Positions 1,373 to 22,736 of a stretch of DNA of 32,321 bases are shown one piece after another. Source of the stretch: Bacillota bacterium (GTDB lineage: Bacteria > Bacillota > Bacilli > Alicyclobacillales > SLC66); contig JAJZCB010000040.1 in the NCBI GenBank assembly GCA_021846285.1, forward strand, positions 1 through 32,321, read 5' to 3'. The position numbers and the translations under genes are program-made. Every line of letters starts with the position of its first letter. The stretch's first letter is position 1. The notes below the pieces were generated by a model. It had not been told where the DNA came from. It did no database searches and saw nothing but the letters and a program-made list of their open reading frames with translations.

Positions 1373-1384
1373 GGAGTGAGAGAA

Positions 1385-2137
1385 ATGCAGTTGGCCGCAG
1401 CGTCCCACGTGGGCCTCGTGCGCAAAATTAATCAGGACGGATATCTGGTCAAACAGGAGTCAAGCGGCGCCTATGTGGTATGCGTCGCCGATGGCATGGG
1501 TGGGCACGTTGCAGGCGAAGTGGCCAGTGCGCTCGCGCTCAGCACTCTATGGGAGGTGCTCGGCGACCAGGCTGCGGAAACGGACCAGAGCGCACGTTTG
1601 CAGGCGGCCATTCAAGCCGCCAATGAAAAGATTCATCAGCAGGCGAACGGTTCGGAAGTGTACACAGGCATGGGTACGACCATCGTGGCTGCGGTGGCCG
1701 ATTCCACATACATATGGATTGCGCATGTCGGCGACAGCCGCGCCTACCTGTGGCGCAAGGGTGGGGATCTGACGCAATTGACGGAAGACCATTCGCTGGT
1801 CAATGAATTGGTGCGGCGGGGGCAGATTCGTCCGGAGGAGGCGTTGACGCACCCGCAAAGGCATATGTTAACGCGGGCTCTTGGAACGCTGCCTGACGTA
1901 GTGATCGAAAGCAGGCAAGTTTCCTGGAACAGAGGGGATATCCTGCTCATCTGCTCGGATGGGCTCACAACGCACGTATCGGATGACCAGGTACAGGAGT
2001 TTCTGGCGGGGGATAGCGCCCTGCAAGCCAAGCTCGATGTCCTGGTGCAGACTGCCCTGGAAAAAGGCGGACACGACAATGTGACTGTGGCGGCATTGTT
2101 CAATGATGACGGCGCACAACGGGGGAATGCATCATGA
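1385..2137 (+). CDS. prpC: PrpC (Stp), PP2C-type Ser/Thr protein phosphatase
   Basis: Metal-dependent PP2C phosphatase that reverses phosphorylation by the adjacent kinase PrkC. The standard PP2C motifs occur in order: R-K-I-N-Q-D near the N-terminus, VADGMGGH (metal-binding Asp), [37 protein letters not shown] and the final DNVTV. At 250 residues it has the usual length of the bacterial family and no membrane segment, so it should be cytoplasmic. A GTG at 1376 would add three residues; ATG 1385 is preferred because AGGGAG at 1371-1376 is then well placed as ribosome-binding site. Its stop overlaps the prkC start (ATGA, 2134-2137), which implies translational coupling of phosphatase and kinase. 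Confidence 0.95.
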
Positions 2138-4323
2138 TCGGACAGATTCTGGGCGGCCGTTATCAGATCCTGGAGAAAATTGGCGGAGGCGGTATGGCAG
2201 TCGTCTATCGGGGTCTGGACGTGCTCTTGCATCGACCGGTATCGGTTAAGACGCTGCGACCAGAGTATGTAGGGGACATGGACTTTATTAGGCGATTCAA
2301 GCGCGAGGCGCAGGCGGCGGCCAGTTTGTCCCATCCAAGCGTCGTTAACATTTACGACGTGGGTCAGGATGGCGACTTACATTATATAGTGATGGAATAT
2401 GTGGATGGCAAAACACTTAAGCAAGTCATTGAAGAGCGAGCGCCGCTGCCAGTGGACGAAGCTGTCGACATCGCCCGCCAGATTTGCGATGCATTGGCTC
2501 ACGCTCATGAGCACAACATCGTTCATCGCGACGTCAAGCCGCACAATATTCTCATCAGCAGGTCGGGCCGGGTCAAGGTGACGGATTTCGGGATCGCGCG
2601 AGCTATCTCAACGAACACGATTACGCACAGCAGCAGCGCCGTTCTCGGGTCAGTCCACTATTTTTCTCCTGAACAGGCGCGTGGCGGGATCGCCGATGCG
2701 AAGTCTGACGTGTATTCACTCGGCATTGTGCTTTACGAAATGCTGACTGGCAAACTGCCCTTTTCAGGGGAGACACCCATCAGCGTGGCGCTCAAGCATC
2801 TGCAGGAAACGTTTGTGGAACCTCGTCATCTCGCGCCGCGGATTCCCCAAAGTGTAGAAAACATCGTCCTGAGAGCGCTCATGAAAGATCCCCGTGATCG
2901 TTACCAATCGGTCAGACAGATGGCAGACGATCTGGAACGCGCCCTGCTGTTGCCTGACGCACCCAAATTCGTGTCGACCGGCAGGTATGTCGACGATAGC
3001 CCTACGATTGAGATTCCTATGATGCTAAGGAACAACAGTGCGCCTTCGCTTGAGGATGAACTGCAGGATGAGGAAATGCCGGCGCCAAGATCGTTGAAGC
3101 GCCGGGTATTGACCGTTCTTGCGTGGATCTTCGGGTTGGGAGCTCTGATCGTTTTGGCCGCTATCGCCGCATTCTATATCCTGGTGACCTTTATCCGGGT
3201 GCCGACAACGCAAATGCCAAATGTTGTGGGGATGTCCTATGCCAATGCCCGAAGCGTATTGATTGGACATGGGTTTCACTCTGACAAGATTCGTGAGATT
3301 TTTGACCAGAGCTCGACCTCGAAAGTAGGCATGGGCGATGTGGAAAGACAGAGTCCAGCGCAGGGTAATGTGATGACAGATCAGGAAGTGACCCTCGTCA
3401 TCAAGGACGGCAGCGCGCAGGTTACCATGCCGCCTTTGGCTGGGTACGCCCAGAACAGCGCTTACCAGCAGTTGATGGACCTGGGTGTTCCGGGCGGCAA
3501 CATCGCGGTGACCAATCAGCAGAGTGCTACTGTGCCGGTTAACCAGGTCATTTCGACAACCCCGGCGGCTGGCACAACATTTACCACAAACACGACTCAA
3601 GTTGATCTTGTTGTCAGTTCGGGCGCCCAATCAGCGGCGGTGCCAGATGTGCGCGGACAAACGATCAGCGCCGCTGCAAACGTACTGAAAGCCGATGGAT
3701 TTGTATTGGGGCATGTGACCAAGGTAACGTCATTCACGGCGCCTGCCAATCAGGTTATGGAACAAGCTCCGTCGCCGGGTCAACAAGCTACGGCCGGCTC
3801 CGCGGTCAAACTCACGGTGAGTTCTGGAGAGCCTGCTGGCACAACGGTCACCTCGGCCAACGTGAACGTCACGATTCCGCCTGGCACCAGTCTGCCGGTC
3901 GACGTGAAGATCGTGGTTTCAGACGCACTGGGAACGCGAACGGCGGTCACGGCTTCGCAGGCAACTCCATCCGCAACCTATCAGGTACAGGTGACGACGA
4001 CGCCAACAATTACCGGAGAAGTGAGTGTCTATGAGAATGGACAAATGGCTTCTACCAACATGATTTCCGGCGGCGGCGGCAGTACAAACATTGGTACAGG
4101 CGGAGGAACGGGAACGGGAACGGGCACAGGAACGGGAACGGGAACGGGAACGGGAACGGGAACGGGAACGGGAACGGGAACGGGAACGGGAACGGGAACG
4201 GGAACGGGAACGGGAACGGGAACGGGAACGGGAACGGGAACGGGAACGGGACCAGGAACGGGCACAGGAACGGGAACGGGCACAGGAACGGGCACCGGTA
4301 CAGGAACGGGGACAGGTCAATGA
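2134..4323 (+). CDS. prkC: PrkC, membrane PASTA-domain Ser/Thr kinase with a Gly-Thr repeat tail
   Basis: The 729-residue protein has a cytoplasmic Hanks-type kinase domain (about 10-270) with glycine loop [13 protein letters not shown]-binding K39, HRDVKPHN (catalytic D133) and DFG (D151). One transmembrane helix follows (about 324-351). Outside the cell are three PASTA repeats (about 360-565), which in this family bind peptidoglycan fragments, then an Ig-like region. The C-terminus is unusual: residues 658-727 are 35 consecutive Gly-Thr dipeptides (one Gly-Pro), encoded by a hexanucleotide repeat. Known PrkC proteins regulate cell-wall work, spore germination and translation factors, including RsgA, which is encoded next. 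The kinase and PASTA assignment is certain; the role of the tail is unknown. Confidence 0.97.
4105..4314 (+). repeat. GGAACG hexanucleotide microsatellite inside prkC
   Basis: Thirty-five in-frame hexamers. The core 4129-4248 is 20 uninterrupted copies of GGAACG (120 bp). Both flanks carry degenerate copies (GGCACA, GGACCA, GGCACC, GGTACA, GGGACA). Each hexamer is Gly-Thr, so whole-unit gain or loss changes tail length by two residues without a frameshift. The pure core suggests recent slippage expansion and the varied edges older units. The long Arg-Ser, Pro-Val, Phe-Pro and Glu-Arg open frames over this segment on both strands are by-products of the repeat. Confidence 0.98.
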
Positions 4324-4400: not shown

Positions 4401-5291
4401 TTGACATTGGATGTGCCAGGTCGGATCACTCGCGCCGTTGCGGGCTTCTATTACGTACAGACACAAGACGGCGCGGTACGCAAATGCCGCGCCCGCGGAG
4501 TGTTTAAAAAACGTGGGATCAGTCCGCTTGTTGGCGACCATGTGCTCGTGGAGTTGCATGGTGTCGACGAGGGTGTCGTGACGGAGGTCAAACGGCGGCG
4601 CAGTGAACTGATCCGGCCCCCTATCGCCAACGTGGATCAGGCCTTTCTGGTCTTTTCACTTGCTGATCCACCCCTTTCCTTCTACCAGGTTGATAAAATG
4701 CTGGCCATGATAGAATCCTATTCATTGCGGGCCCTACTCGGTTTTACAAAAGTCGATTTGCCCGAGTCGGCTGGCTTGTTTGAGAAAGTACGGACCATCT
4801 ATGAACCGATGGGATACGAAACGCTTGCCCTCAGCGTAAGGGTCGGCATTGGGTCACAGCGTGTGACGGAGTTGTTGTCCGGACGCACAACGGTGCTTGC
4901 GGGCCAGTCCGGCGTTGGCAAATCGACCATCTTAGGCGTATTGTTGCCGGATGAGGACGCCGTCACCGGCGAGGTGGGGGAACGCAGCCGCCGGGGTCGA
5001 CACACGACCCGCCACGTACAGTTGTATCCGTACGCAGGAGGGTATGTAGCCGACACGCCGGGATTCTCACAATTTGATTTTGACGCCATGGAACCTGTGC
5101 AATTGACGAGTCTGTTTCGTGATATCGCCACGGTGGCGAATGGGTGCGCGTTTCGGGGCTGTCTGCACGATCAGGCGACTGGGTGCGCCGTGCTGCAGGC
5201 CGTGTCAACGGGACGCATCGACCAGTCTCGCTACGGCAGCTACAGACAACTGCTAGCCGAATTGAAAGATGCAAAAGCGAGGCGATACTAA
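4401..5291 (+). CDS. rsgA: RsgA, circularly permuted GTPase for 30S subunit maturation
   Basis: RsgA (YloQ/CpgA) binds the nearly mature 30S subunit and hydrolyses GTP in late assembly. The 296-residue product has an N-terminal OB-fold (about 5-70, ending in NELIRPP-like SELIRPPIANVDQ) and then a circularly permuted GTPase: G4 TKVD (116-119) precedes G1 GQSGVGKST (168-176) and G3 DTPG (218-221). A C-terminal zinc site has C249, C254, H256 and C262. The TTG start at 4401 follows AAAGGA at 4391-4396; TTG 4407 is also possible. In Bacillus, PrkC phosphorylates this protein, which fits its place behind prkC. The stop overlaps the rpe ATG by one base (TAATG). Confidence 0.95.
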   Translation: MTLDVPGRITRAVAGFYYVQTQDGAVRKCRARGVFKKRGISPLVGDHVLVELHGVDEGVVTEVKRRRSELIRPPIANVDQAFLVFSLADPPLSFYQVDKMLAMIESYSLRALLGFTKVDLPESAGLFEKVRTIYEPMGYETLALSVRVGIGSQRVTELLSGRTTVLAGQSGVGKSTILGVLLPDEDAVTGEVGERSRRGRHTTRHVQLYPYAGGYVADTPGFSQFDFDAMEPVQLTSLFRDIATVANGCAFRGCLHDQATGCAVLQAVSTGRIDQSRYGSYRQLLAELKDAKARRY

Positions 5292-22037: not shown

Positions 22038-22736
22038 GTGGTGCCAATAGTGAGCGCTCTTCCGCTGTCACGTTTATGCAGGGAATTACAGATAGCCTTT
22101 ACCGACACTGTGTTGCTGCGTTCCGCATTTACACATTCCTCCTACAAGAACGAACATCGTCGGAACGGCAGGGAAGACAATGAACGTTTGGAGTTTTTGG
22201 GTGACGCTGTGCTGGAACTGTGCGTCAGCCAGTATTTGTATAACACATTTAGGGAAGCGCCTGAAGGGGAGTTGACCAGGCTGCGGGCCGCCACGGTGTG
22301 TGAACCGTCCCTCGTGGCCATTGCCCGCGAGTTGAAGTTTCCGCTGTACCTTCGTCTTGGCAAAGGTGAGGAATTGTCGGGCGGACGAGAGCGGGCCAGT
22401 CTCATTGCGGACGTCTTTGAGGCGTTTGTCGGTGCGCTCTTTCTGGATCAAGGATTCGCCGCAGCGGACGCCTTTCTGGCCATTCATCTCTACCCGCGGA
22501 TCCAGGACGATGGACAAACTCTTCGCAAGGATTACAAAACGATACTGCAGGAGCATGTGCAGAAATCCGGACAAGGACTCCTGTCATACGATATTGTCGC
22601 GGAACGCGGTCCGGCGCATGATCGTGAATTTGTGGCCACCGTGTATGTCGGGGGCAAGGTGCGGGGACAAGGCGTGGGGCGCTCCAAGAAAGAAGCGGAG
22701 CAAAATGCGGCGCGCGATGCTCTTGCGATGGACTGA
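22038..22736 (+). CDS. rnc: Ribonuclease III
   Basis: Double-strand-specific endoribonuclease that processes rRNA precursors and, in Bacillus, the SRP RNA. The 232-residue protein has the RNase III signature NERLEFLGDAVLEL, a second metal-binding region ADVFEAFVGALFLDQG, and a C-terminal dsRNA-binding domain (KTILQEHVQKSGQG ... GRSKKEAEQNAARDAL). The start is uncertain: GTG codons at 22038, 22041 and 22050 are all in frame and none has a good ribosome-binding site. It is followed by smc as in Bacillus (rnc-smc-ftsY). Confidence 0.95.
   Translation: MVPIVSALPLSRLCRELQIAFTDTVLLRSAFTHSSYKNEHRRNGREDNERLEFLGDAVLELCVSQYLYNTFREAPEGELTRLRAATVCEPSLVAIARELKFPLYLRLGKGEELSGGRERASLIADVFEAFVGALFLDQGFAAADAFLAIHLYPRIQDDGQTLRKDYKTILQEHVQKSGQGLLSYDIVAERGPAHDREFVATVYVGGKVRGQGVGRSKKEAEQNAARDALAMD

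Follow-up and report, generated by a model that had tools for sequence, protein, structure and literature searches.

The Gly-Thr repeat at the 3' end of the prkC-like gene is a true coding microsatellite, and the reading we prefer is that it is the most recent regrowth of a disordered tail found throughout the family. The window, meaning the whole stretch of 32,321 nucleotides that was analysed, is one entire contig of a 164-contig genome assembly (G000), and its forward strand carries an open reading frame at 2134-4323 that encodes a PASTA Ser/Thr kinase of 729 residues. Thirty-six Gly-X hexamers, counted in the register starting at 4105, fill 4105-4320 of the forward strand. Exact GGAACG accounts for 28 of them, with three GGCACA and one each of GGCACC, GGTACA, GGGACA, GGACCA and GGTCAA, and the encoded tail reads as 34 Gly-Thr, one Gly-Pro and one Gly-Gln. 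The longest pure GGAACG run is 20 copies (4129-4248, 120 pure bases). The original prediction had reported this run, in frame with prkC, among 35 Gly-Thr units; the repeat is real and its sequence, coordinates and reading frame all hold, while the count drops to 34 since the Gly-Pro unit had been included. Tandem Repeats Finder places the prkC array at 4105-4310 with a score of 328 as the sole strong array in the window, and the remaining two, at 231-290 (score 71) and 22649-22679 (score 41), are weak, in agreement with the earlier statement that no other gene here has a comparable repeat. The array at 231-290, immediately 5' of an rlmN-like gene, has a 20-base unit present in three imperfect copies.

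Codon usage within the tail departs sharply from that of the rest of the protein. GGA supplies 29 of 36 glycine codons within the tail versus 11 of 54 before it, ACG supplies 28 of 34 threonine codons versus 22 of 53, and when tails were recoded at random from the codon usage of this protein, no pure run exceeded 4 in 5000 trials. Because the bias is confined to the tail and recoding does not reproduce the run, we conclude that the DNA itself was expanded, as opposed to a Gly-Thr protein being written in its usual codons. Across the 3.89 Mb genome assembly prkC is the only site of (GGAACG)4, and the tail used as a protein query matches only prkC DNA, in frame and as one out-of-frame echo. When 398 genomes sampled from the phylum were searched for (GGAACG)5, one carried it, G000 itself, in a sample without its congener G001 (run of 7). 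Among the 18 genomes of the family, (GGAACG)3 occurs in three, namely G000 and G001, both in prkC, and G013, at two places outside prkC. These G013 sites, of (GGAACG)3 or longer, lie in L087 (C111) and L088 (C218), one of them in an ORF that is MarR-like by eye, and the reversed control pattern of the search also matches G013.

PASTA kinases have been studied mainly for their folded domains, and as judged from profile searches and structural models the folded part of this protein is that of an ordinary PrkC-type PASTA kinase, to which a disordered, uncharged Gly/Thr C-terminus is added. The kinase domain is N-terminal (Pfam Pkinase, residues 10-258, 5.1e-55), a hydrophobic stretch read by eye at about residues 329-353 is a candidate for the single membrane span between kinase and PASTA domains, and the PASTA domains that follow are presumably extracellular. 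Three PASTA domains occupy about residues 355-566 (3196-3831, forward strand; Pfam PASTA 3.2e-33 in three stretches, elements 4-209 of an AlphaFold2 model of the ectodomain fragment), followed by a seven-strand Ig-like domain at about residues 571-656 (3844-4101; model strands 217-300, mostly with pLDDT above 90). In the same model, built on 27 sequences with a mean pLDDT of 80.4 and a pTM of 0.46, every residue of the tail (657-729, at 4102-4320; fragment residues 303-375) has a pLDDT below 50 and no secondary structure. Positions 7-292 of the ectodomain profile match the S. aureus PrkC/PknB ectodomain 3py9 (E 2.2e-50), which shares the order of three PASTA domains and then an Ig-like domain, and the match spans both kinds of domain. 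3py9 is without the Gly-Thr tail, the match stopping at residue 293 of its 294-residue chain. Foldseek likewise returned 3py9 as its top match (E 3.2e-18) with low overall TM-scores of 0.28 and 0.34, which we ascribe to domains positioned differently to one another and to the disordered tail. Pfam, the 3py9 profile and the AlphaFold2 model thus agree with the original placement of the tail after three PASTA domains and one Ig-like domain. The adjacent upstream gene encodes a PP2C phosphatase (Stp-like; 1376-2137, forward strand, Pfam PP2C_2 1.9e-20), a type of phosphatase that we take to be paired with PrkC, and directly downstream lies rsgA, encoding a GTPase (4401-5291, forward strand, Pfam RsgA_GTPase 2.4e-49).

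Tail length differs among the three species of the genus, each represented by one genome, with 36 Gly-X pairs in G000, 29 in G001 and 14 in G002. Up to the tail, the G000 and G001 genes are 96.0% identical in DNA, differing silently at 56 codons and with a change of amino acid at 18; their tails are 7 pairs (42 bases) apart and have their runs interrupted at different places. Leaving aside the terminal Gly-Gln common to both, nine of nine G001 variants are the silent GGAACA and the longest GGAACG run there is 7, while the seven variants of G000 are all other than GGAACA and one of them is the Gly-Pro. G002, at 84.7% identity to G000, has three Gly-Ala among its 14 pairs and no exact GGAACG unit. 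Because the tails of the three congeners differ in their units, the pure 20-copy block is probably younger than the split of G000 and G001, or has been homogenised since.

That the tract is an assembly artefact we consider extremely unlikely, given that the corresponding position in G001 holds a tract of this kind, which has silent interruptions of its own and ends alike. What lends the idea some weight is that 120 pure bases approach short-read length, and that two contigs of a further family genome, G005, end inside a related (GTGQ)n array: L101 (end of C61) and L092 (start of C94) both break within (GGACAAGGAACA)n, which encodes Gly-Gln-Gly-Thr. Since such arrays can break assemblies, as in G005, the tail length in the window is provisional, and contig coverage tags of the matching short-read MAG records are 1.87 (G001) and 2.2 (G002), at which the tail may have been assembled at a wrong length. 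Public MAGs may accordingly be an unreliable source of such lengths. By eye, the L101 side of the G005 break is a prepilin-like gene, and G005 may hold a type IV pilin-like gene with a long Gly-Gln-Gly-Thr insert.

A PrkC match was present in 17 of the 18 family genomes, and all 16 proteins in which the Ig-like domain lies in frame carry a C-terminal tail. Comparison of the C-termini of relatives therefore contradicts a tail confined to G000, and we rejected the view of it as a unique oddity of that genome. Counted from ten residues past a motif anchor, the 16 tails run from 10 to 115 residues and consist to 89-100% of G/T/S/P/N/A/Q, with a median of 0 charged residues (7% in G012). Tandem DNA repeats scoring at least 50 underlie ten of them, with units that differ between genera and best periods of 6, 12, 12, 12, 15, 15, 18, 18, 24 and 30, every one a multiple of 3. 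The six tails in which no repeat was detected (G005, G006, G007, G011, G012 and G016) keep the composition (89-100%); with no more than 10 residues, the one in G007 shows that length is not a requirement. Read in frame, 95.7% of the 1108 residues of the 16 tails belong to the same seven amino acids and there are 0 stops, as compared to 37.9% and 37.3% of 1092 residues each in the other two frames, with 12 and 18 stops. This excess points to selection on protein composition and not merely to repeat-prone DNA, although it is only the six repeat-free tails that show it best, because repeat ancestry partly produces the composition bias.

A tree of the kinase and PASTA domains joins G000 to G001 and then to G002. 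Five of its forks are open, so we report different units and leave independent tail origins uncounted. Collectively, these sequence comparisons establish that the tail is general among the family genomes examined, where composition and frame are kept and sequence and length are not, and that in several genera it is made of tandem DNA repeats with different units; the G000 tail exemplifies a common pattern strikingly and is no new system. The two family genomes outside the count of 16 each have a feature of their own. In G014 (L089, C48:91800-93200) PrkC loses its frame past the PASTA domains, and a different frame encodes the Ig-like domain together with a short Gly-Thr tail; either an error in sequencing or a true pseudogene could explain this, and the out-of-frame protein was excluded. 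G015, which is 65% complete, yielded no PrkC at the threshold used, and its Gly/Thr-rich fragment at a contig end (L098) was left out of the count, the stretch read there showing no recognisable rsgA.

Tails of other kinds are found outside the family. The order contains a second family with 41 PrkC proteins, of which 38 could be parsed (G049, G050 and G053 were unparsed by motif), and by eye these mostly place an Asn/Gly/Ser/Thr low-complexity segment, plausibly a spacer, between the last PASTA domain and the Ig-like domain and mostly end soon after the latter, with a low-complexity C-terminal end in eight (G018, G019, G021, G022, G023, G025, G048 and G052). L031 (G052) and other PrkC proteins of this second family carry N-S-T-G repeats (NSTGNSTGN), many resembling N-x-S/T sequons. 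Among the matches listed, the best 75 named relatives (L112-L186) comprise 41 with tails of at least 20 residues, 22 with shorter ones and 12 without a usable Ig anchor; these anchors come from a motif and are approximate, and L114 and L156, both counted among the 41 long tails, are doubtful on account of an odd C-terminus and an anchor at odds with a separate tail measurement. The 41 long tails, in the matches listed, are nearly all from Paenibacillaceae and mostly charged (median 25% D/E/K/R, range 3-38%). The PrkC proteins of Paenibacillus (such as L116-L119, L125, L126 and L134) thus resemble those of the window's family in having a long low-complexity tail past the Ig-like domain and differ in that the tail is mostly charged, with near-uncharged, Gly/Thr-rich exceptions in P. 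flagellatus (L125, 5% charged) and P. thalictri (L134, 3%). Tumebacillus, Brevibacillus and most clostridial relatives among the matches listed end at the Ig-like domain or a few residues past it. Because the named relatives differ by group, the earlier statement that the Ig-like domain lies close to the end of known PrkC proteins is true for some groups only: it describes S. aureus 3py9 and the three sets just named, but not 16 of 16 in-frame family members or many Paenibacillus.

To account for these patterns, we favor as probable a reading in which selection keeps an uncharged, disordered, wall-facing tail and replication slippage both provides it and changes its length. In-frame units would build, lengthen or shorten the tail by slippage or unequal recombination, point mutation would later erode the repeats, and selection would keep the product soluble, uncharged and disordered; a recent last expansion in the G000 species would then explain its pure 20-copy run. 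In-frame coding microsatellites of bacterial surface proteins have short units in multiples of three and change length without frameshift, and the prkC repeat, sampled from one genome per species, would resemble them in its short in-frame units. The tail itself would form a flexible hydrophilic brush in the wall, and neither a specific binding site nor a spacer, that is dispensable for catalysis and stands in a wall that is probably acid-exposed. The acid part of this functional reading rests on a guessed habitat, the congener genomes being presumably of acid mine or solfataric origin to go by their isolate names. An uncharged brush may suit an acid-exposed wall, and the charge contrast between the family and Paenibacillus is consistent with this but is confounded with ancestry and has its exceptions in L125 and L134. 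We hold as rather unlikely the wider proposal that a probably acid-loving family recurrently regrows an uncharged, Gly/Thr-rich disordered brush from its own microsatellites, with a slippage-set length that tunes wall sensing by the PASTA kinase in acid.

The original prediction had offered a wall spacer as one role, but no domain lies beyond the tail, and with nothing after it to space we disfavor that role as weakly founded. The tail could instead be a neutral by-product, in which slippage near the stop codon adds harmless in-frame residues and selection acts only against misfolding. Family tail lengths spanning 10-115 residues would sit well with this. So would the C. difficile PrkC, likewise a PASTA kinase with a low-complexity segment, which according to PMC9674922 still autophosphorylates, phosphorylates its targets and localizes to the septum when its Ser-Gly-Asn-rich region is removed, and the same result would fit a Gly-Thr tail that is not needed for catalysis. 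By that paper's description, the C. difficile protein is set apart by a segment of Ser/Gly/Asn instead of Gly/Thr and by two PASTA repeats. We regard neutrality as unlikely, though worth serious consideration, given a tail in 16 of 16 in-frame PrkC proteins and given the six repeat-free tails, whose 89-100% composition compares with about 38% in the other frames of the 16 tails. Among the papers listed, none dealt with a PASTA kinase that ends in Gly-Thr repeats, and none gave an experiment on such a tail.

Two further readings assign the tail a more specific task. (GGAACG)20 is the long pure repeat of a short unit expected of a contingency locus, and copy number might vary within a population to set the reach or strength with which the ectodomain reports wall damage. 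The pure run, the in-frame unit and the 36, 29 and 14 pairs of the three congeners all speak for such tuning, yet the interspecies difference may include assembly error, and because the tail is terminal its length cannot change PASTA reach; we think this quite unlikely. The threonines might also form a putative O-glycosylation scaffold, an idea compatible with the selected, slippage-supplied tail that we prefer and one encouraged by a threonine at nearly every second tail residue, by the Thr- or Ser-rich composition of most family tails and by a PF02366 protein in the closest congener, G001. Some family tails, however, are Thr-poor (G012 with 4% and G005 with 7%), and the family search found this PMT-family O-mannosyltransferase domain in 2 of 18 genomes (G001 and G004) and not in G000, a blunt test in that PF02366 also matches unrelated control genomes and is the one glycosyltransferase family searched. 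A scaffold role seems improbable, and phosphorylation of the tail, which the original prediction raised beside glycosylation, is conjectural. A tail that related lineages build from different repeats, keeping just composition and frame, would provide a clean natural experiment on whether the disordered ends of wall sensors have a function or are debris that the cell tolerates.

The repeat may also matter as nucleic acid, a point absent from the original prediction. Read in the shifted register GGGAAC, the pure run at 4129-4248 may form an array of G-quadruplexes on the coding strand, with five non-overlapping G3-N1-7 motifs in G000 and two in G001, and quadruplexes at the 3' end of the prkC mRNA might affect translation or the downstream rsgA. 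Recoded tails contained a mean of 1.25 such motifs, with 1 of 2000 trials reaching five, and the modelled RNA energy of the G000 tail was -95.2 with quadruplexes allowed versus -47.9 without. An effect of this kind is nonetheless very unlikely, since the motif is absent from the other 14 family tails and so is not a conserved trait, although the energy model, whose gain is strong for G000 and G001, predicts a quadruplex for G016 as well and, weakly, for G013. The array is probably a side effect of the expansion and of the codons used, and it could promote further slippage. Ordinary hairpins were rejected as a candidate (RNA fold z -2.29, a stability matched by 2 of 200 shuffles; z +2.38 for the complementary DNA strand), and because hairpin folding excludes quadruplexes, these were modelled separately. 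Between 3900 and 4600 nothing resembled a promoter, and the one terminator-like site, at 4429-4444 (shuffled sequence would give 0.5), lies past the tail and within rsgA.

Low-complexity repeats of the same style as the prkC tail were also seen in other surface proteins of the family. L095 (G009:C118) encodes a secreted protein that is chitinase-like by eye and an adjoining ORF with (STGG)n linkers, and L099 (G008:C164) encodes a large secreted protein in which an N-terminus that is SLH-like by eye is followed by a Gly-Thr/Gly-Ser linker.
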